Positions 23,626 to 32,132 of a DNA stretch of 53,200 nt are shown here, piece by piece. Both the position numbers and the translations under genes were made by a program. The stretch's first letter is position 1. Each line of letters begins with the position of its first letter. The notes beneath the pieces were generated by a model. It made no database searches, was not told the origin of the DNA, and saw only the letters and a program-made list of their open reading frames with translations. Source of the stretch: Alistipes sp. GTDB lineage: Bacteria; Bacteroidota; Bacteroidia; Bacteroidales; Rikenellaceae. The stretch lies in contig JAFTNV010000035.1 in NCBI GenBank assembly GCA_017451685.1, positions 1 to 53,200 on the forward strand, written 5' to 3'.

Positions 23626-23656
23626 TTGACAACGCTATATTCACGTTGTATATTTG
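23626..23656 (+). promoter_or_regulatory. Strong promoter of the phage-like gene cluster
   Basis: TTG (23626-23628, in CTTGAC) and TATATTTG (23649-23656) are separated by exactly 20 bases, an excellent match to the Bacteroidetes housekeeping promoter. The predicted start near 23663 gives a leader of about 240 bases before the first gene at 23901. Confidence 0.8.
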
Positions 23657-23697
23657 TACCGTCAAACGTCGCTTAACGGATGGTTGAAGGCTCTCGG

Positions 23698-23814
23698 TTA
23701 TTAACATTAAAAGTTGGTAGTTGGCAGGTTATGAACATTTATAATATGCTATGTATTAATGGTATAGTGTTTATTATATAAAACTATCAACGTGTTATGA
23801 ACGGTTTATTAACA
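23698..23814 (+). promoter_or_regulatory. Cluster of phased TATnAAC boxes in the leader of the phage-like operon
   Basis: Same-orientation boxes: TTATTAACA (23698-23706), TTATGAACA (23729-23737), CTATCAACG (23784-23792), TTATGAACG (23795-23803) and TTATTAACA (23806-23814). The last three are exactly 11 bp apart, placing them on one helix face. They may be operators or weak DnaA boxes; they lie downstream of the promoter, inside the 463-base gap where leftward genes give way to rightward ones. Nothing else recognisable is in this gap. Confidence 0.5.
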
Positions 23815-23900
23815 CAGCGTGGCAGGCTGATAATTAGTGTTAAGGCCGGAAGTTGAGGGCGGTTGACACGACAAAGTCTAACATCTTAAAAAATTTAACA

Positions 23901-24851
23901 ATGAGGTTTTTGAAAATACCCGAAAACGGGGCTTCCTGGAACGCGGCATTATGCTACACCATGGCTACGGAGCGAGGACTCAAAGACGATGTGGTTGTCG
24001 AGGTTATAGATGCAATAAGCGGGGAGGTGCTCGGCACGCGCCGTCTCTACGGCATCACCACGGCGGAGGTCGACATAGCGCCCTACGTGCGAAATGCCAT
24101 AGGCGTGGCGACGCTTACGACAGCGATACTCGAACTATCGCCCTCGGCACGAGCCATCATCGTGCGTGCCAACGGCGTGGATGCAGAGCAGCGCATCTTC
24201 TACCGCGCAGAGTTGCACACCACCTCGCCACACATCCTATCGAGCTTGAAGCAGCCATCGGTCGTGGCACATGGCGATGTTATCCGTATCACGGCATTTG
24301 CGACGGAGGAGGTGAGGGTGTCGGTGGAGGACAAGCGCATAGTGGAAGCGGAGGTTGTCTCGGCGATACAATCGAAGAGCATGCCCGTGGAGATAGCCGT
24401 GCAGACATCCTTATACGTGGGTCACAATGTGCCAATAAGGGTGAAGGTAACGTGCGACCGCGGCTACACATACACCTTCGACTGCACCATCGTTGAGCCC
24501 ACGGAGGCGAGCTACCGCATAGCGTGGTACAACACCGAGGGTGGCATTGAGTGTTACACCTTTCCGCGAGGTGTGCGCGAGAGCCTCGGGGCGGAGATGG
24601 CGGCCGAGATTCGGGGACGTGCATCGCGACTAAGAGGGGTAGTGGCGAGGTATCGTTTGGTGTCGGCATTCGAGGCGCGTGACGAGGTGGAGCGCATCGC
24701 GGGGGTGATATTCTCGCCCGAGGTGTACGAGTGCAAAGGCGTGGAGAGTAGTGTGGTAAAGCTCCTCGATCGTGAGATAAGGTATGACGACCATGGTGGC
24801 TTACGACGTGTGGAGTTGGGTGTTGAAAAGGAGTGGACTGTAGGGCTATGA
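23901..24851 (+). CDS. Putative phage tail-tip/structural protein
   Basis: A 316-residue soluble protein with no signal or membrane segment. ATG at 23901 (MRFLKIPENGASW), after an A-rich AAATTTAACA leader, is preferred over a weak upstream start at 23853. It is predicted mostly beta: an N-terminal sandwich-like part (VVVEVIDAISGEVLGTRRLYG, VDIAPYVRN), a middle Ig-like part (VRVSVEDKRIVEAEV, VPIRVKVTCDRGYTYTFDC) and a helical C-terminus. I do not recognise a family; a tail or baseplate role is inferred from its ATGA overlap with the next, tail-tip-like gene and the capsid genes beyond. Codon use resembles host genes. Confidence 0.5.
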   Translation: MRFLKIPENGASWNAALCYTMATERGLKDDVVVEVIDAISGEVLGTRRLYGITTAEVDIAPYVRNAIGVATLTTAILELSPSARAIIVRANGVDAEQRIFYRAELHTTSPHILSSLKQPSVVAHGDVIRITAFATEEVRVSVEDKRIVEAEVVSAIQSKSMPVEIAVQTSLYVGHNVPIRVKVTCDRGYTYTFDCTIVEPTEASYRIAWYNTEGGIECYTFPRGVRESLGAEMAAEIRGRASRLRGVVARYRLVSAFEARDEVERIAGVIFSPEVYECKGVESSVVKLLDREIRYDDHGGLRRVELGVEKEWTVGL

Positions 24852-27172
24852 TGGAGTTTAAGATTGATGGCGTGGTATGTCCCTTGGCTGCGGGGGATGT
24901 GCATCTACCGGGGTATAGCGCCAAGCGCCTGCGTAGCGTGGAGGCGTGGCGCGAGGGCAGCACCCTAAAGTTGAGCGTTAGCGCCACGGCGGATGTAGAG
25001 AGGCTCTTTGGCTTCGCCCTCGACCTACACCGCGGTGTAGACTTTAACGACAGCTACCACCATGCGGAGCTTATTGTCGATGGTGTTGTGGTCTTTGAGG
25101 GGCGTGTCGTATTGTTGGGCGTGGAGCATACGGCAGCGGGTGATAGCTACAATGTGGAGGTGCGCTCGGGAGGCGACGACTGGGCGGAGAGTGCTGCGCT
25201 GAAGAGGCTCAACAAGAGCAGCGTGGCGTGCAACAGGACGATGACCATGGCGGGCGTGCGGCAGTCGTGGAGCGACGAGGGGGCGGTGCGCATGTTGCCG
25301 GTGCGTCGTGACAGCTATCCCGAGCCGGCACCGACGGGGTTATTCGTGTCGCAGCAGATGCTCCTGCCACAGGATTATGTCCCCTTTATCTCGGTGCGTG
25401 ATGTCATCCGCAGCATAATGCTCGATAGCGGCTATACGCTGCGTAGCGACTTTCTCGACACGGCATTTGCCCGTCGCCTGATGATAAGCGGGGCGTACCA
25501 TCGTCCCAACGTGGAGGCGGCATACGCACAGATGGGGTTCAAGGCCATGCGCACGGCATCGACGACAGCAACGGCAGGGGTGCTCGGCAGGGTAGACATG
25601 CGTAATCCCGTGATGGCCGATAGTCTCGGGGCGCTCGTCGACACGGTAAACCCCAATGTCGAGGATGAGGAGGGCGTGCCGTTGGGCGATGCTTACTCTG
25701 CGGGAGGGTGCTTCCGCTTCGAGTTGGGAGAGCCTACGTTTGTACCACGGCGCGAGATAAACGTCGCCTTCGACCTCCACTTGCGCTACACGACAGATTA
25801 TCGCATAGTGTCGTCGAAGCGCCTCAAGGGCTTCGATAGGGTATACCTGGGTAACAACTGTTATGTCGACACCGTATTGCAGAATCCGTTCAAGGATATG
25901 CGTAACAGCATCACCGCGGGAGTGCTGTACAAGCTCTTTATCTTCGACTACAACCCCGAGTTGACGTATATGCTGTCGGGCGTGGGTAACATCACGGCAG
26001 CGGTATCCAACGTGGTGTTCGATGCGGAGTTTAGTGGTAGGCCGGCACTATACTTCAAGGCGGCCACGGACGAGATATTCGTGCCCTACCTGAACGACTG
26101 GGCGCTATACGAGGGATACGTCAAGGAGCGTGGCGAGCGTACCGTAGAGCTCACGGTGCGCACCCCCTACGAGCTATGTACACCGACATCTCCGCGTCGC
26201 TTCAACGACCTATCTATCGAGGGTGCGGAGCAGGGGCAGAAGATAACGCTCCATGCGCGTTGCAGCATAACGCCCGTATTTAGTGGTGCTGCGGGGTATG
26301 GCCAGGAGCTCACGTTTGCCGACATGGCCAACCACGACATCGCACAGGCAACGCTCCTCGGCGCCCTCGCCCAGATGTTCAACCTGTGTATCTACTCGCA
26401 CCGCCCCTCACGCACGCTCTACATCGAGCCCTACGACGACTTCTTCTCTGCCGAGGAGTGCGACTGGCGCGGGCGACAGGTGGAGGAGAGTCTCACGTAC
26501 GACGAGTGTGCCGTGGAGAGCTTCGAGTGCACGAAGTTAGGATATCAGCATCCCGATGGCGCTGCCGCGCGCATGGTCGTGGGCGAGGGCAAGGAACTCG
26601 GCATGTGGAGCTATGTGAACAACAGCTATGCCGCGAAGCATGCCACCGACACGCGCCGCAACGCCCTCTTCATGCCCACGGCATCGTTCAGCGGAGCTCT
26701 CTCGATGGCTCCCTCGGCAGAGATACTCACCGTGGGCGACAGAGATAGCGTCGCCGAGGGCGACTACATCGCACCGCGCATAGCCCTCTATTACGGCATG
26801 CAGCCCCTGCCCGAGGATGAGATATGGCCCGAGGGTGAGGGCGACGATTATCCCCTCGTGGCGTTCCACGCCCCGGTCATGGGTGAGACGCTATGTTACG
26901 ACGACCGCGACGGCTGCAAGGGGCTTCACAGCTACTTCGATGCCGAGCTACAGCAGGAGGCCATGCGACAGCGGCTCACGGTAAGGGTTATGCTCCACCC
27001 CGAGGAGTATATCTCCCTCTTTGACCCTGCCACCGAGGGTGCCACGATACGCTCACGCTTCCGCCTCGCCGTGGGTGGCGACAGCTCGCTATTCAGGCTC
27101 GACGAGGTTGTAGACTACGATGCCGAGCATCACATAGCGACATGTCGCTTCCAGCGCCTCATGGAGGATTAG
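24848..27172 (+). CDS. Putative phage baseplate/tail-tip hub protein
   Basis: A 774-residue soluble protein starting within an ATGA overlap with the previous gene. The N-terminal part (about 1-130: MMEFKIDGVVCPL, ERLFGFALDLH, AELIVDGVVVFEGRVVLLG) and the middle (VRDVIRSIMLDSGYTLRSDFL, RRLMISGAY, LGALAQMFNLCIYSHR, LYIEPYDDFF) match what I recall of large tail-tip proteins in Bacteroidota prophages, where GY-x-S-x-F, ISGAY and NL..IEP.DDF recur. The C-terminus is beta rich. No tape-measure or major-tail gene is nearby, unusual for such a protein. Family assignment is from pattern memory and should be tested by profile or structure search. Confidence 0.55.
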   Translation: MMEFKIDGVVCPLAAGDVHLPGYSAKRLRSVEAWREGSTLKLSVSATADVERLFGFALDLHRGVDFNDSYHHAELIVDGVVVFEGRVVLLGVEHTAAGDSYNVEVRSGGDDWAESAALKRLNKSSVACNRTMTMAGVRQSWSDEGAVRMLPVRRDSYPEPAPTGLFVSQQMLLPQDYVPFISVRDVIRSIMLDSGYTLRSDFLDTAFARRLMISGAYHRPNVEAAYAQMGFKAMRTASTTATAGVLGRVDMRNPVMADSLGALVDTVNPNVEDEEGVPLGDAYSAGGCFRFELGEPTFVPRREINVAFDLHLRYTTDYRIVSSKRLKGFDRVYLGNNCYVDTVLQNPFKDMRNSITAGVLYKLFIFDYNPELTYMLSGVGNITAAVSNVVFDAEFSGRPALYFKAATDEIFVPYLNDWALYEGYVKERGERTVELTVRTPYELCTPTSPRRFNDLSIEGAEQGQKITLHARCSITPVFSGAAGYGQELTFADMANHDIAQATLLGALAQMFNLCIYSHRPSRTLYIEPYDDFFSAEECDWRGRQVEESLTYDECAVESFECTKLGYQHPDGAAARMVVGEGKELGMWSYVNNSYAAKHATDTRRNALFMPTASFSGALSMAPSAEILTVGDRDSVAEGDYIAPRIALYYGMQPLPEDEIWPEGEGDDYPLVAFHAPVMGETLCYDDRDGCKGLHSYFDAELQQEAMRQRLTVRVMLHPEEYISLFDPATEGATIRSRFRLAVGGDSSLFRLDEVVDYDAEHHIATCRFQRLMED

Positions 27173-27200
27173 GTAAACTGTAAAACAAACAAATTAACGT

Positions 27201-28376
27201 ATGACAACATCGCATTGGCAGGGGCCCAAAACGCCCGCGCCTCGCCCCTCGCGTCGATATGAACGCCTCATAGGACAACTCTTGGAAATGGATATGCTCG
27301 ATATGAAGAGGTGTGAGCAGCGCGCCATGTACCAGATGGTGCAGGAGCTAAAGGGGCGTCATGGTGGCCGCTGCATGGCGATGGTGATCGCTGCCGACTA
27401 CTTCAGCTGCTCGTACGAGAAGGTGCGACTTGCGGTATACACGGTAGATAAACAGATTAAAGAGAACGAGATGAACAAAACAATCAAGATTAAGAACGAG
27501 GTGGGGCAGACCACCATCGACATCGAGGGAACAATAGGCCTCAGCGAGGCGTGGCAGTTCGACAACCCCGAGAGTCGCGTGGCTACCTACGAGCGCTTCC
27601 GCGAGTGTGTGTCGGAGATTGCCGACATCCGCAATGCACAGATACGTGTGAACATACGCTCCACGGGTGGCGATGTGAACGATGCCATCCTCATCTACGA
27701 GGCGCTGCGTGCCACAGGTGCACACATCACAACCTGCTGCTACGGCTATACAGCCTCGGCAGCAACCATCGTGGCACAGGCCGCAAGCCCGGGGTGTAGA
27801 CTCATAGCACCATCGTCGCTATACCTCATTCACAACTCGCTATGTGCAACGGAGGGTAATGCCGAGGAGCTTCAGGCCGAGGTCGACATGCTCAAGCAGA
27901 CGGATCGTCGCATCGCCGAGATTTACGCCTTACGCTCGGGGCGCGATGTGGAGGTCATAGCCGCGCTCATGGCCGAGAATGGCGGTCGCGGACGATGGCT
28001 CTCACCGGCAGAGAGCATCGAGGCGGGGCTTGTCGACAGCATCGAGGGCGAGGTCGTGACCGAGGGTGACGACAAGAGCATCATCGAGCGCACGAAGCAT
28101 GGCGTGAAGGCCTTACTTAAGGCTATAGGTGTGAGTGCCGAGGATGATAAGCCTGCCGTCGAGGACGACGTAAACTATATTTCGCGCCAGGCGGTGAGCG
28201 ACATTGCGCCACAGCCCAAGGGCGGCGAGGGTGTGACCATAGCGTTCGAGGAACACCAGCGTGCCGTGGAGCCATCGACAGTTAAGGCTGTTGAGGACCC
28301 CGACCCCGTAGACTTTGTTGCCAACCCCCGCGCAAGGTCGTACGATGCCGATGCTTGCAGGCTGAAGATGCGATAA
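27201..28376 (+). CDS. ClpP-type prohead protease with an extra N-terminal domain
   Basis: A 391-residue protein. The core (about 95-290) is a ClpP/S14-like fold used by phages to mature capsids: IRSTGGDVNDAILIYEALRA, catalytic Ser in GYTASAATIVAQAA, His in SSLYLIHNS, and the C-terminal WLSPAESIEAGLVDSI. Residues 1-90 are an unusual extension with a helix-turn-helix-like segment (VIAADYFSCSYEKVRLAVY); an internal ATG at 27471 begins right before the protease core, so two products are possible. The last 100 residues are disordered and may act as scaffold, as in some phage protease-scaffold fusions. It directly precedes the capsid gene. Confidence 0.82.
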   Translation: MTTSHWQGPKTPAPRPSRRYERLIGQLLEMDMLDMKRCEQRAMYQMVQELKGRHGGRCMAMVIAADYFSCSYEKVRLAVYTVDKQIKENEMNKTIKIKNEVGQTTIDIEGTIGLSEAWQFDNPESRVATYERFRECVSEIADIRNAQIRVNIRSTGGDVNDAILIYEALRATGAHITTCCYGYTASAATIVAQAASPGCRLIAPSSLYLIHNSLCATEGNAEELQAEVDMLKQTDRRIAEIYALRSGRDVEVIAALMAENGGRGRWLSPAESIEAGLVDSIEGEVVTEGDDKSIIERTKHGVKALLKAIGVSAEDDKPAVEDDVNYISRQAVSDIAPQPKGGEGVTIAFEEHQRAVEPSTVKAVEDPDPVDFVANPRARSYDADACRLKMR

Positions 28377-28463
28377 CGCTTCGACACAAAACTTAGAAAT
28401 CATTAAACCGAGGATAGCGTCCTCAAAAACAACCATTTACTAACATCTAAAACATTTTTAATT

Positions 28464-29432
28464 ATGGGACTTATTGAAAATCCTAAGACCTACACCGGTC
28501 GCGACCTTGAGACAATCTTCTTCCGCCCTATGTTCTCGGGCGACAAAGCCGAGGATCTCGGCATCCGCGTGCTCTACAACATGCCTGTGCCTACGACAAT
28601 ACAGGTGTGGAGCCCGCAGTCTAACATCCTTCAGGAGTATAGCACAGGCTGGTCGGGTGGCGACCCTGCCGAGAGAGTGCAGAAGAGCATCGAGATGAGT
28701 AAGATTAAGGCCGAGGTCGCCTTCTCGGCACAGAACTACTTCCAGCAGGTATACGAGAATATCGTATGTCGTGCCGATGTAAACCTCGAGGATCTTACGG
28801 GCACCGAACTCGAGCAGGCCGAGACGGAGATGTTCCGTCGTGCCATCACCGAGAACCTCCGCGCGTTGATGTGGATAGGCGACAAGGATGCCTCAACGTA
28901 TAACAACATCAATGGCTTCCTCACGTTGGTACACCGCTACTCCGAGGATGTGGTGATTCCTTGTGCCGAGTTCCCCGAGTTGGAGGTGACGGCCGACAAT
29001 GTCATCGACGTCCTCAAGACGATTTGGAGCAAGGCGCCCGCAGCACTGAAGGCGTTGAAGCACGAGGGTCACTTGGCCTTCTATGTCACATCGGACATCT
29101 ACGAGGCCTACGAGGAGTACCTCGATGGTCGTGGTGGTGACGGTGCGTATACCGACATGGTGTCGGGTCGCCGCGAGCTGTCATACCACGGCATCAAGCT
29201 GGTGGATATGGGCATATCGCAGTACATGCCCTTGCACTACAACACGAAGTCGACGCATGCTATCCTCACCGACAGCCGCAACCTCGTCCTGGCGGTAAAC
29301 ACTGCCGACATGCCCGGCTCGGAGGTGCGCATGTGGTACAACCCCGATGAGATGGAGAACCGCCAGCGTGCAACCTTCCTCGTGGGTACCGAGATTCTCG
29401 ATGAGCAGCTGCTTGTGCTCGCCATTTTCTAA
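28464..29432 (+). CDS. HK97-fold-type phage major capsid protein
   Basis: A 322-residue protein with the layout of mature HK97-like capsid proteins: N-arm (ENPKTYTGRDLETIFFRPMF), a helical spine (ETEMFRRAITENLRALMWIGD), TYNNINGFL, the A-domain strands (HLAFYVTSDIYEAYEEYLDG, YHGIKLVDMGI) and the closing segment (MWYNPDEMENRQRATFLVGTEILDEQLLVLAIF). It lacks a long N-terminal delta domain; the protease C-terminus ahead could supply scaffold. An 88-base A-rich spacer with a 5-bp hairpin (GAGGA/TCCTC, 28410-28424) precedes it, perhaps setting higher capsid expression. Encapsulins share the fold, but the portal next door favours a phage-type shell. Confidence 0.8.
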   Translation: MGLIENPKTYTGRDLETIFFRPMFSGDKAEDLGIRVLYNMPVPTTIQVWSPQSNILQEYSTGWSGGDPAERVQKSIEMSKIKAEVAFSAQNYFQQVYENIVCRADVNLEDLTGTELEQAETEMFRRAITENLRALMWIGDKDASTYNNINGFLTLVHRYSEDVVIPCAEFPELEVTADNVIDVLKTIWSKAPAALKALKHEGHLAFYVTSDIYEAYEEYLDGRGGDGAYTDMVSGRRELSYHGIKLVDMGISQYMPLHYNTKSTHAILTDSRNLVLAVNTADMPGSEVRMWYNPDEMENRQRATFLVGTEILDEQLLVLAIF

Positions 29433-29458
29433 CTTACACCGACAAACACTTTCTACCT

Positions 29459-30682
29459 ATGTCAAAGGATAGAGTATCAACACGTGTTGTCGCCACACAA
29501 AACCGCTCGGAGCCCCTTTTGGGCTCCGGAGGTGTGGTGGCAACAACAAGCAAGGTGTGGCGCTGGGGTGGCGATAATATGTTGCCGCGCGCCCTCTCAC
29601 TCCTTGCGCGCCGCTCCGTGGCGCATCGTCGCATAATAAACGACAAGGCAGACTATATCTCGGGCAAGGGATTTACCTGTGCAGAGGGCTCGGCCGAGTT
29701 GAAGTATATGGTTGAGCATGCTAACGGCCGGGGCGAGTCGTTGCACAGCATCCTGCGCCGCATAGCCACGGATGAGGCTATGTTTGGCAATGCCTTTATG
29801 GAGGTGGTGACGGATGCGGAGCACTCGTTCCTCTCGTTCTACCACGTGGATGCCTCGCAGTGCCGTGTGGCATGCGATGAGTCGCACGTGGTCATGCACC
29901 ACGACTGGTCGCAGTTCAACGCCTCGCAGGCCATAACACTGCCACTATATCCGCTTTTTGAGCCAATGGAGGATGGCACACTCCGCACGGTGGTACACTA
30001 CAAGAGCTACGAGCCTATGTTCTCACACTATGGCGTGGCGCCATATATCGCGGCGTTGGATGCTGCGGCCATCGTCTACAAGACCGACCGCTGGAACATA
30101 TCGCGCATAGACAACGCCTTTCAACTCTCGGGCGTGATGATGCTCGATGGTGCAATAGACAACGAAGAGGAGGCCGACCGCGTTGTGCGCCTTGCGGAGG
30201 AGAAGTTTGCCGGCAATCCGGGGCAGGTGCTCTTCGTGCTACGCGACAATGCCGAGGGTGACAACTCGCGCTTCATCCCCATCAACACCTCGACCGATGG
30301 CGACTGGCACACGTTGCACTCCGTGGCCGAGTCGGACTTGGTAGTAGCGCACTCGTGGTTCCGCTCGCTCAGCGGCTTAGACTACGCCTCGGGATTCTCC
30401 TCAGACCGCATCTTGCAGGAGTACGAGGTGGCGCTGAATACGGTCATACTGCCGATTCAGGCGCAGTTGCTGGAGCCCATACGCGCCATCATCGCATCGC
30501 AGCTCGGTGTCGATGCCTCGTCGCTCGACATCGTCAACCGCCCGCCCTCGCGCTCGAAGCCCCTATATATGCGTATCTGGGAGGCACGTCGTGCCGACGG
30601 CCTTGACTACGACGAGTGCGACCCCGAGCAGCAGCGCTTCCTTGCCGAGATTACGAAGTATAACATACGTTCAATCGAGTAG
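29459..30682 (+). CDS. Phage portal protein
   Basis: A 407-residue protein resembling HK97/SPP1-class portals, which form the dodecameric DNA gate at one capsid vertex. Typical parts are VWRWGGDNMLPRALSLLARRS and RRIINDKADYISGKGF (N-terminal wing), DEAMFGNAFMEVVTD, the clip/stem stretch KTDRWNISRIDNAFQLSGVM and the C-terminal helices SSDRILQEYEVALNTVILPIQAQLLEPI. Length is within range. It is 27 bases behind the capsid gene and 3 bases before the connector; the reverse order (portal first) is more usual in phages. No terminase gene is next to it. Confidence 0.85.
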   Translation: MSKDRVSTRVVATQNRSEPLLGSGGVVATTSKVWRWGGDNMLPRALSLLARRSVAHRRIINDKADYISGKGFTCAEGSAELKYMVEHANGRGESLHSILRRIATDEAMFGNAFMEVVTDAEHSFLSFYHVDASQCRVACDESHVVMHHDWSQFNASQAITLPLYPLFEPMEDGTLRTVVHYKSYEPMFSHYGVAPYIAALDAAAIVYKTDRWNISRIDNAFQLSGVMMLDGAIDNEEEADRVVRLAEEKFAGNPGQVLFVLRDNAEGDNSRFIPINTSTDGDWHTLHSVAESDLVVAHSWFRSLSGLDYASGFSSDRILQEYEVALNTVILPIQAQLLEPIRAIIASQLGVDASSLDIVNRPPSRSKPLYMRIWEARRADGLDYDECDPEQQRFLAEITKYNIRSIE

Positions 30683-30685
30683 ACT

Positions 30686-31144
30686 ATGAAGACGCTAATC
30701 ACACCTACGGAGGTCATGAGCCTCGCATTTAGTGCCGAGGAGATGTACAATGTCGCCGTTGTCACCGACCTCGATATCGCGGCTGCCGAGGAGCGCTACG
30801 TGCGCCCCGTCGTGGGTCGCGAGCTCTACGCCAGACTCCTTGAGGGCGACTACCCTAGCCTTAAGGATGACTATGTGGCACCTCTTGTTGCTGCCTGGAC
30901 ACGCTATATCGTCGAGCCACTCTTGGCCTCGCGCTGCGATGTATGCCACGAGGCGGGCAGCACGGCGGCGGAGAATGAGGCCACGGCGGAGCGTTGTCGC
31001 TCGCTGCGCCTCAGGGCCCGCACCCTCTCACGTGCTCTTGCGGAGCACCTTAACTCTCGGGCGGAGGATTACCCCGAGTACAACCCCTATGCAAACCCCT
31101 TAAATCGCTGTTCTATAGATGGAAATATTGTTCAAGTATATTAG
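30686..31144 (+). CDS. Phage head-tail connector-like protein (DUF6712 type)
   Basis: A 152-residue helical protein similar in size and pattern to head-completion/connector adaptors of Bacteroidota phages: LITPTEVMSLAFSAEEMYN, AAAEERYVRPVVGRELYARLLEG, DDYVAPLVAAWTRYI and C-terminal YPEYNPYANPLNRC. Such proteins dock under the portal ring. It starts 3 bases behind the portal gene and overlaps the holin gene by 26 bases, so it is part of the same transcript. The DUF6712 label is from memory of this pattern. Confidence 0.7.
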   Translation: MKTLITPTEVMSLAFSAEEMYNVAVVTDLDIAAAEERYVRPVVGRELYARLLEGDYPSLKDDYVAPLVAAWTRYIVEPLLASRCDVCHEAGSTAAENEATAERCRSLRLRARTLSRALAEHLNSRAEDYPEYNPYANPLNRCSIDGNIVQVY

Positions 31145-31544
31145 CGCCACGCTCGCTGCTATCGTGGCGACGCTATGCCCCGTGGCACCCCTCATCGCCA
31201 CAGCCCTCCTCTTCGTTGTCATCGACTTCCTCACGGGCATTGCCGCCTCACGTGCTGTTGCCCGTCGCGAGGGCCGCGAGTGGTGGCTGGAGAGCCGCAA
31301 GGCGTGGCGCACGGTGGCAAAGGCGGGATTTGTAGCCATCGCCATCGTCATGATGTGGATTATGGATAGTTACATCCTCGGCTTCATGCATCTAAACCTC
31401 GCCAACATATTCACAGGCTTTGTATGTGGCGTGGAGCTATGGTCGTTTCTGGAGAATGCTGCAACCATCAGCCAGGCGCCACTCTTCGAGTGGCTCGGCC
31501 GTTGGGTCAAGCGTCGTGTAGGCAAGGAGGTGGGCGATGAGTAG
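31119..31544 (+). CDS. Phage holin-like membrane protein
   Basis: A 141-residue inner-membrane protein with three or four hydrophobic segments (ISATLAAIVATLCPVAPLIATALLFVVIDFL; AGFVAIAIVMMWIMDSYIL; LANIFTGFVCGVELWSFL) and a basic C-terminal tail (RWVKRRVGKEVGDE). The VVIDFLTGIAAS signature and ending LENAATI match the phage holin family of toxin-secretion/lysis type common in Bacteroidota phages. It would permeabilise the inner membrane or release the endolysin. It overlaps both neighbours (26 and 8 bases), a compact lysis module. Confidence 0.82.
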   Translation: MEILFKYISATLAAIVATLCPVAPLIATALLFVVIDFLTGIAASRAVARREGREWWLESRKAWRTVAKAGFVAIAIVMMWIMDSYILGFMHLNLANIFTGFVCGVELWSFLENAATISQAPLFEWLGRWVKRRVGKEVGDE

Positions 31545-31941
31545 GGGTCTTAGAAACCGTAACCCGGGAAATATACGTCGCTCTGCCGTGCACTTTAGGG
31601 GTGAGGTGACACCGAGCCGCGATGCCGAGTTTAAGGAGTTTTCCTCGATGGCCTATGGGTATCGAGCCATGTTTGTGGTGCTCGACAGCTACCGTCGTCG
31701 CTACGGTCGAAACACCATACGCACGATGATTGAGCGCTATGCTCCACCCACGGAAAACTTCACTGACGGCTATGTGCGCTTCATCACTCGCCGCACGGGC
31801 ATCGCCCAAGATGAGGTGCTCGACACCCGCTCCCCGCGCGACATGATACCCGTCGTGGCCGCCATGAGCGAGATAGAGAATGGCACAGCACCCGTCATGG
31901 CCGACATTGAGGCCGGCTGGGAACTCTTTACTCAGAAATAG
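31537..31941 (+). CDS. P5-type lysozyme/transglycosylase-like protein
   Basis: A 134-residue protein beginning RGLRNRNPGNIRRS, followed by FKEFSSMAYGYRAMFVVLDSY, TIRTMIERYAPPTENFTDGYVRFITRRTGI. This is the pattern annotated 'structural protein P5' in Bacteroidota phages, a small lysozyme-like fold (RNxNPGNIR, GYRAM, YAPP-ENxT-Y). It lacks a signal peptide, as expected for a holin-dependent endolysin, whose gene it overlaps by 8 bases. It could equally be a virion-bound peptidoglycan hydrolase. It is the last gene of the cluster. Confidence 0.78.
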   Translation: MSRGLRNRNPGNIRRSAVHFRGEVTPSRDAEFKEFSSMAYGYRAMFVVLDSYRRRYGRNTIRTMIERYAPPTENFTDGYVRFITRRTGIAQDEVLDTRSPRDMIPVVAAMSEIENGTAPVMADIEAGWELFTQK

Positions 31942-31952
31942 TTGTACCAATG

Positions 31953-32076
31953 TTGAGGCTGAATAAAAAGGCTCTTTTGTCGTTGTGCTTGCCCTCAAAA
32001 TGCTCATTTACGTTCAGTAAACTCCGCTTTTTCGGGCTTCGCAGGCCTAAAAATAGCTCATTTTATTCAACCTCCT
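31953..32076. repeat. Intergenic inverted-repeat element (copy 1)
   Basis: About 120 bases bounded by imperfect terminal inverted repeats: GAGGCTGAATAAAA at 31955 and, on the other strand from 32074, GAGGTTGAATAAAA, both continuing toward CTxTTTT. Inside is gccctcaaaatgctca, identical over 16 bases to the last bases of the window. It begins 12 bases after the last phage-like gene. The form is that of a MITE- or BIME-like dispersed element. Confidence 0.55.
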
Positions 32077-32082
32077 AATAAC

Positions 32083-32132
32083 GGGGATGACTAATTTACT
32101 TTTTAGTCATCCCCACTTTTGTAAAAAGTGGG
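32083..32132 (+). terminator. Double hairpin ending the phage-like operon
   Basis: An 11-bp perfect stem (32083-32093 / 32104-32114, GGGGATGACTA arms) is followed by ACTTTTGT; its 3' C-run also starts a second perfect stem (CCCACTTTT 32112-32120 / AAAAGTGGG 32124-32132). The two are mutually exclusive at the shared Cs. The first, with T tail, looks like an intrinsic terminator. Confidence 0.65.

Follow-up and report, generated by a model that had tools for sequence, protein, structure and literature searches.

A probable split gene transfer agent of tailed-phage origin across the Rikenellaceae

Results

This analysis concerns a cassette of eight phage-structural genes (g1 to g8, Table 1) in a 53,200-nucleotide stretch of Alistipes sp. 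DNA (assembly GCA_017451685.1, contig JAFTNV010000035.1, positions 1 to 53,200; hereafter, the window), which is contig C28 of a metagenome-assembled genome (MAG) of 1.59 Mb that is 80.6% complete. With a probability of roughly 0.7, the cassette provides the structure and lysis functions of a split gene transfer agent (GTA) that spans the family Rikenellaceae, originated from a tailed phage and has since been inherited vertically. The best explanation places its domestication ahead of the family's radiation or in an early phase of it. An initial annotation made from the window's sequence had proposed a domesticated capsid or GTA-like system, and this proposal was supported by the distribution of the cassette, the ratios of nonsynonymous to synonymous substitution rates (dN/dS), a gene tree resembling that of rpoB, and a conserved large terminase subunit (TerL) in relatives.

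A capsid cassette across the Rikenellaceae

When the family was searched with a 22-row profile, the capsid gene (g4) was found in 244/268 genomes, including 106 of the 110 good ones, and in 17/22 genera. Its copy number was nearly always one, and one stop-bearing place occurred among the matches listed. A single capsid sequence used as the query found its own genome and 88 of the 90 other genomes of the same genus, with no stop among the matches listed, and 0/59 genomes outside the genus. An order-wide search matched 9/324 genomes, of which four were family members and the other five were weak or partial. The sporadic occurrence that the initial annotation had set against its own proposal was thus not observed, the capsid being present in most of the family with a gene tree that follows rpoB (see below).

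Gene content was surveyed in 81 loci, comprising the window and the best 80 of 141 confirmed loci, the 80 relatives being titled Alistipes, Rikenellaceae or Bacteroidales. Genes g4 and g5 were present in all 81 loci, g2 and g3 in 78 each, g1 in 73, g8 in 67 and g7 in 66, with the absences including contig ends and limits of simple open reading frame (ORF) calling. The window cassette sits between a gene that we take, following the initial annotation, to be prfA and a short-chain dehydrogenase gene. Across the loci, prfA adjoined the cassette in 22/81, and other clades had different neighbors. Of 10 flanking families scanned in relatives, 8 were ordinary bacterial families and 2 had no match.

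Pieces of this locus were also present in virus collections. L119 and L120 (MT838805 and MT838736), deposited as "Bacteriophage sp." from human feces, are pieces of the cassette locus, and L119 by eye extends into a comEC-like gene. Nine IMG/VR contigs listed as viral (L121 to L129) carried capsids 40 to 61% identical to that of the cassette. One of these, L124, has the same X-Y-Z-T set as genus g61 (see below). The divergent L129 (capsid about 40%) by eye has several fiber-like genes between connector and lysozyme and may encode a more complete form of the particle.

A conserved terminase, usually at a second locus

The initial annotation had reported no terminase, integrase, transposase or tape measure gene. 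This was correct beside the cassette, but relatives were found to encode a TerL, in most cases at a separate locus of the genome. The idea of a capsid system lacking a terminase altogether was given up when a search with PF03237, which matched 50/53 family genomes, revealed the conserved TerL. TerL was detected in 242/268 family genomes and 106/110 good ones, mostly as a single copy. Across 12 aligned sequences, mean column identity was 69%, and the PPQHGKS motif, the Walker B DD and the RNase H-type nuclease motifs were invariant; these we take to be the ATPase Walker and nuclease motifs of a terminase. The one TerL tested matched phrog_38 (4e-95), and searches against PDB profiles gave weak matches only, to two terminase entries (0.004). 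Other candidates for the cassette terminase were rejected: PF04466 (12/110 genomes) and PF03354 (9/53 genomes) were patchy, and the phrog_2 match in 52/53 genomes was a widespread weak hit to a PhoH-like gene, so named from the sequence in the window's own genome and, for the other genomes, from their match to the same stretch of the profile.

The two loci were joined in a few genomes. In G271, an unbroken series of repressor, small ORF, terL, 91-amino-acid ORF, protease, capsid, portal and connector was observed, and in G288, G287 and G308 terL lay ∼4 kb upstream of Y-g1-g2, Y being one of the additional genes described below. The remaining 15 of 19 fetched terL stretches had no cassette gene nearby.

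Across the 268 genomes, 232 had both capsid and TerL, 12 had the capsid only, 10 had TerL only and 14 had neither (Fisher p, 1.5e-10), a tally in which unlisted misses were deduced from hits and some of the joint absences come from incomplete MAGs. Neither gene was found in the four genera g62, g65, g67 and g68 (8 genomes). The joint presence or absence of the two genes bears on the possibility that the capsid was domesticated for a purpose other than transfer, such as storage or export of protein cargo or protection of DNA inside the population. For such a role speak the location of terL outside the cassette, the lack of a TerL match in the window's MAG, and the failure to recognize a tail tube or fiber in the window's clade. 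However, a portal, a head protease and a TerL with nuclease motifs would be useless to a protein compartment, and this alternative is considered quite improbable. Encapsulins, or protein nanocompartments, have a capsid fold without portal and terminase; here, portal and protease are present and TerL is conserved in relatives.

A divergent repressor gene, found by its helix-turn-helix motif, was located beside terL in 47/49 loci, corresponding to 40/42 genomes; this count leaves out L216, which has another terminase. The one repressor tested contained HTH_3 and Peptidase_S24 and was CI/LexA-like. The motifs GDSM and TVKY, which presumably hold the catalytic serine and lysine, were present in 16/18 listed sequences, and both were lost in two from genus g69 (L203 and L206). 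As these two lack the S24 serine and lysine, their control must differ. A small terminase subunit (TerS)-like ORF (phrog_309, about 1e-7) preceded terL in both g61 loci tested, and a ∼95-amino-acid ORF before terL in the Alistipes locus L212 gave no family match.

The closest phage TerL among the matches listed was 50% identical (Bacteroides phages), and that of Alistipes phage AS73P1 was 44% identical. A tree was built from 37 TerLs of the family and 8 selected from phages. Of the latter, seven formed one group, and none fell inside the main family group of 33 rows; the joining point of the g61 and g75 rows was unsettled. Judging from these comparisons, the family TerL is not a recent gift from phages.

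Purifying selection and vertical inheritance

Median dN/dS values from close pairs were 0.24 for g1 (5 pairs), 0.22 for g2 (23 pairs), 0.14 for g3 (41 pairs), 0.18 for g4 (90 pairs) and 0.16 for g5 (372 pairs), with pairs restricted to dS < 2 (41/42 for g3 and 372/402 for g5) and not independent of each other. The five structural genes g1 to g5 are under purifying selection. Degradation of the genes, which the initial annotation had named as evidence against domestication, was accordingly not apparent, with medians of 0.14 to 0.24 in the five genes and few broken copies.

For comparison with the host phylogeny, rpoB, TerL and capsid were assembled for 39/53 genomes, of which G245 and G154 were dropped (short TerL), leaving 37. 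Pairwise distances correlated with those of rpoB at r = 0.88 for TerL and r = 0.70 for the capsid (permutation maximum, 0.37; 999 permutations), and capsid and TerL distances correlated with each other at 0.57 (≤0.37 in 999 permutations). Of 34 splits, 18 were shared between TerL and rpoB, 20 between capsid and rpoB and 18 between capsid and TerL; shuffled trees shared almost none. Among well-supported splits, 1/16 in the TerL tree and 2/17 in the capsid tree conflicted with rpoB (from the rpoB side, 1 and 3 of 21, respectively), and there was no well-supported conflict between capsid and TerL. We read these patterns as vertical inheritance of capsid and TerL with little exchange.

These data bear directly on the main alternative of the initial annotation, a decayed or split prophage. 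An ancient prophage undergoing decay at its site, retained by chance or on its way to being lost, would be in keeping with the lack of an integrase or replication gene beside the cassette, the loss of the tape measure, the further loss of gene T from the window's clade (at least 4 changes in T presence over the 81 loci), the stops in T in some genomes and a few broken copies elsewhere. The dN/dS values of 0.14 to 0.24, the presence in 106/110 good genomes and the agreement with the rpoB tree nevertheless require long-lasting selection, and the prophage explanation was rejected on these grounds as very unlikely. At the window locus, the full gene set that a functional prophage would need for excision, replication and virion formation was not present. 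Phage satellites, which borrow the parts of a helper phage, are mobile and patchy. The small size of the module and the lack of a terminase beside it resemble a satellite, but the cassette follows the host tree, no integrase was found among 10 flanking proteins and TerL is conserved in the same lineage, making this explanation extremely improbable. Excision, att sites and dependence on a helper phage were not seen.

Tailed-phage origin and reduction of the cassette

The gene order had initially been described as odd. A nearly identical order was observed in the 37.5-kb IMG/VR phage contig IMGVR_UViG_3300017991_000226 (L130), which carries g1-like and g2-like genes, a 1,010-amino-acid gene called tape-measure-like from its length, sequence and place, then H (a ∼90-amino-acid ORF), a 404-amino-acid gene, capsid, T and portal. 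Since the cassette order is nearly that of L130 minus the tape measure, it appears to be ancestral. The L130 capsid was 31% identical to the cassette capsid over 139 residues, and the hidden Markov models (HMMs) of g5, g4 and g2 matched the corresponding L130 proteins at 6e-86, 4e-41 and 4.5e-29, respectively. The 404-amino-acid gene, in the place of the protease, was unmatched by the cassette's protease model. The families of the protease, capsid, portal, holin and TerL, together with the order of L130, indicate that the structural genes descend from a tailed phage.

Additional genes are retained in some other genera of the family: X and Y precede g1, Z follows g2, and T separates capsid from portal. 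T was present in 66/120 family genomes and in none of the window's clade, and its presence on the tree of the 81 loci requires at least 4 changes. No family was found for T (best score, 0.022, in 1/14); from its place, it is presumably tube-like. The best reading is that the family system was reduced in the window's clade, where T is gone.

Related genes were also seen in a genome of another family (G428), in which two short prophage-like cassettes (L141 to L144) carry a related capsid (about 1e-10 with the g4 HMM) and portal, and weak matches to g6 lie 3′ of the portal. One of these cassettes adjoins a PF04466 terminase; no tail gene was seen in its ORF list, to which no dedicated search was applied.

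The reduced gene set was also weighed against a killer particle resembling PBSX or a tailocin, which would be packaged or empty, lyse the producing cell and act against relatives without moving DNA usefully between cells. The retention of holin, lysozyme, capsid, portal and g1/g2 is compatible with such a particle, and PBSX packages host DNA without injecting it, according to one report (PMC12946183). However, receptor-binding, fiber, sheath and tube genes were not recognized in the window locus, and the conserved TerL motifs point to DNA cutting and packaging. A killer particle is therefore considered unlikely.

Cassette genes, promoter and surroundings

The eight ORFs are all open, tightly packed and on the + strand (positions 23901 to 31941), as initially described. 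Profile searches gave clear matches for protease, portal, holin and the lysozyme-like protein, a weak match for the capsid, and no convincing match to g1 or g2 in Pfam, PHROGs or NCBIfam.

Table 1. Features of the cassette locus in the window
Feature	Position	Strand	Assignment	Basis
Promoter	23626-23656	+	cassette promoter, TTGACA-N17-TATATTTG	strong; boxes conserved in relatives
g1	23901-24851	+	tail-tip-like protein, name uncertain	weak HMM match (1.3e-4) to same-place L130 protein, 505 amino acids
g2	24848-27172	+	minor-tail / hub-like protein	name via one relative only
g3	27201-28376	+	ClpP-type head maturation protease	phrog_94, 2.9e-36
g4	28464-29432	+	major capsid protein	phrog_1623 "virion structural protein," 1.2e-6, weak alone
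g5	29459-30682	+	portal protein	phrog_11226, 8e-20; portal_PBSX, 2.5e-15, below its cutoff
g6	30686-31144	+	connector-like, name uncertain	place after portal; DUF6712, 0.004, below cutoff
g7	31119-31544	+	holin	PF05105, 2.2e-13
g8	31537-31941	+	lysozyme-like endolysin	phrog_873 "endolysin," 1.4e-40
Dispersed element	31955-32118		∼165 nucleotides, MITE- or REP-like	∼14-nucleotide terminal inverted repeats
Hairpin	32083-32114		perfect 12-bp hairpin	GGGGATGACTAA

The name of g2 was obtained through L130, whose g2-like protein matched phrog_737 "minor tail protein" (5e-6); phrog_737 was not matched by any of the 40 remaining sequences in that gene's alignment. H, a separate ORF of ∼90 amino acids in other clades and in L130, is fused in frame as the N-terminal part of g3 in the window's clade. 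HMM counts of g6 over the loci were not used, the hits being contaminated by overlapping frames. No usable result came from PDB profile searches with g1, g2, T and the capsid. A tape measure was not seen beside the cassette in the window. A defense system was rejected on the absence of PADLOC matches for all eight cassette proteins.

The claim of a single housekeeping-type promoter was borne out: the cassette promoter was the sole site in the window with ≤2 mismatches (0.16 expected), and both boxes were identical in all 15 sequences aligned, 14 of them from relatives and one from the window. A site of the form TTGACA-N17-TATNTTTG points towards terL in 7 of 11 aligned terL regions. A common repressor operator in both promoters was considered and dropped, as the inverted repeat of the window promoter, CAACG-N9-CGTTG, recurred in 1/47 terL regions, with other spacing, in a search that allowed 5 to 13 bases between CAACG and CGTTG. 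Base and codon use fit the host as initially judged by eye, with a G+C content of 0.56 to 0.60, as in the four neighboring genes, and a codon use correlation of 0.94 with these four flanking host genes. No integrase, transposase or replication gene was found among 10 flanking window proteins scanned, and the sole tRNA in the window lies ∼10.5 kb from the cassette.

Directly 3′ of g8 lies a dispersed element of ∼165 nucleotides that is matched, in full or in part, at 39 further places in the MAG and is similar to miniature inverted-repeat transposable elements (MITEs) or repetitive extragenic palindromic (REP) sequences. The hairpin GGGGATGACTAA beside it is perhaps the terminator of the cassette.

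Association with comEC and a possible route of DNA transfer

In 18 of 66 judgeable loci, comEC, which encodes the DNA uptake channel, lay ≤300 nucleotides past the last recognized cassette gene on the same strand, the distance being 3 to 178 nucleotides in 17 of these 18. The one comEC scanned matched the Pfam family Competence. On the tree, the loci adjoining comEC fall into two deep branches, requiring at least 7 changes, and the gene after the cassette in the window is not comEC. The adjacency may reflect a true connection with DNA uptake or a neighborhood of long standing.

From the gene content, we infer that the cassette and TerL may together package and transfer DNA. The cassette promoter would direct synthesis of heads from capsid, protease, portal, connector and g1/g2. 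Inactivation of the repressor, probably by RecA-stimulated self-cleavage upon DNA damage or starvation, would release production of TerL, which would fill the heads, headful-wise, with whatever chromosomal DNA it met, without choice of site. Packaging is expected to be nonselective because no sequence-specific TerS was recognized in the Alistipes locus tested. Since the cassette and terL are at split loci, self-packaging would be unlikely. Since the window's clade has no T and no tape measure was seen, its particle would consist of a head whose tail, if any, is very short. Holin g7 and lysozyme g8 would let the particles out by lysis of a small number of cells, and relatives would take up the released DNA, perhaps via ComEC, encoded after the lysis genes in part of the genus. 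A broader scheme is advanced tentatively, as possible but doubtful: DNA exchange throughout the family would rely on reduced, possibly tailless heads and a separately sited motor freed by a self-cleaving repressor; cassette and comEC would be cotranscribed in part of the genus, making capsid export and competence import one pathway; and TerS and the tube-like gene would have been lost later, as specializations.

Discussion

Several observations weigh against a split GTA. The agreement with the host tree was based on a single marker (rpoB) and on FastTree. No TerL match was obtained in the window's own MAG, from which rpoB was likewise missing; its near relatives G080, G081 and G082 have TerL. 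Good genomes without TerL (G043 and G234), without capsid (G215 and G236) or without both (G248 and G256) were found. TerL appeared as two matches in, e.g., G154, G245, G246 and G008, and each of five TerL matches listed contained one stop. Most of g2 and g3 was deleted in L089, and g2 was truncated in L040 and L062. These gaps and broken copies are at odds with a strictly essential function but compatible with a useful one that can be lost. T contained stops in 6/67 places among the matches listed. No receptor-binding, fiber, sheath or tube gene was recognized in the window locus with Pfam, PHROGs or NCBIfam. Finally, in the accessible part of a 2026 study of virus-like particles, 23 of 25 GTA-like events are named and none is from Rikenellaceae, a family described there as abundant in total DNA (PMC12946183). 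Searches of the open-licence literature, which leaves most subscription papers and all bioRxiv preprints outside, listed no GTA of Rikenellaceae or Bacteroidota and nothing on the cassette locus.

Few GTA lineages are established, and the Bacteroidota are a main phylum of the gut. If the cassette and TerL do form a split GTA, a route of gene flow would exist in common gut bacteria, Alistipes and its kin; the question of why a GTA is kept would become testable over hundreds of genomes; and the filing of pieces of this locus as phage in public collections would be explained.

Comparison with known systems

The phage contig L130 shares the order g1, g2, H, capsid, T, portal with the family loci and differs in having the 1,010-amino-acid tape-measure-like gene between g2 and H and the 404-amino-acid gene in the place of the protease. 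PBSX of Bacillus subtilis forms one long, uninterrupted prophage that includes tail genes, whereas the Rikenellaceae locus is split and reduced. PBSX is a defective phage that packages host DNA (PMC12946183). Its portal family is the one weakly matched by g5.

Recipients of RcGTA use competence proteins, and its main cluster holds terL and a full tail gene set under regulators other than those observed here. Like the Rikenellaceae system, RcGTA of the Rhodobacterales is of tailed-phage origin and conserved widely, in most genomes of its order. The TerS of RcGTA is without a detectable DNA-binding domain (PMC9662315, PMC11841831). The Faecalibacterium systems FpGTA I and II share with the present one a gut commensal host and two separate operons, but FpGTA groups TerL with the capsid and has its lysis genes at a distance, whereas in Rikenellaceae the lysis genes accompany the capsid and TerL is the separate part; for FpGTA, particles and their DNA have been seen (PMC12946183).

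In BhGTA (VSH-1) of Brachyspira, as here, terL lies outside the delineated capsid cluster and is single-copy and conserved in the genus (PMC9662315). BhGTA belongs to another phylum, and its particles are proven. Compared with BhGTA, the Rikenellaceae system is near-universal across a whole family and has a repressor at its terL locus.

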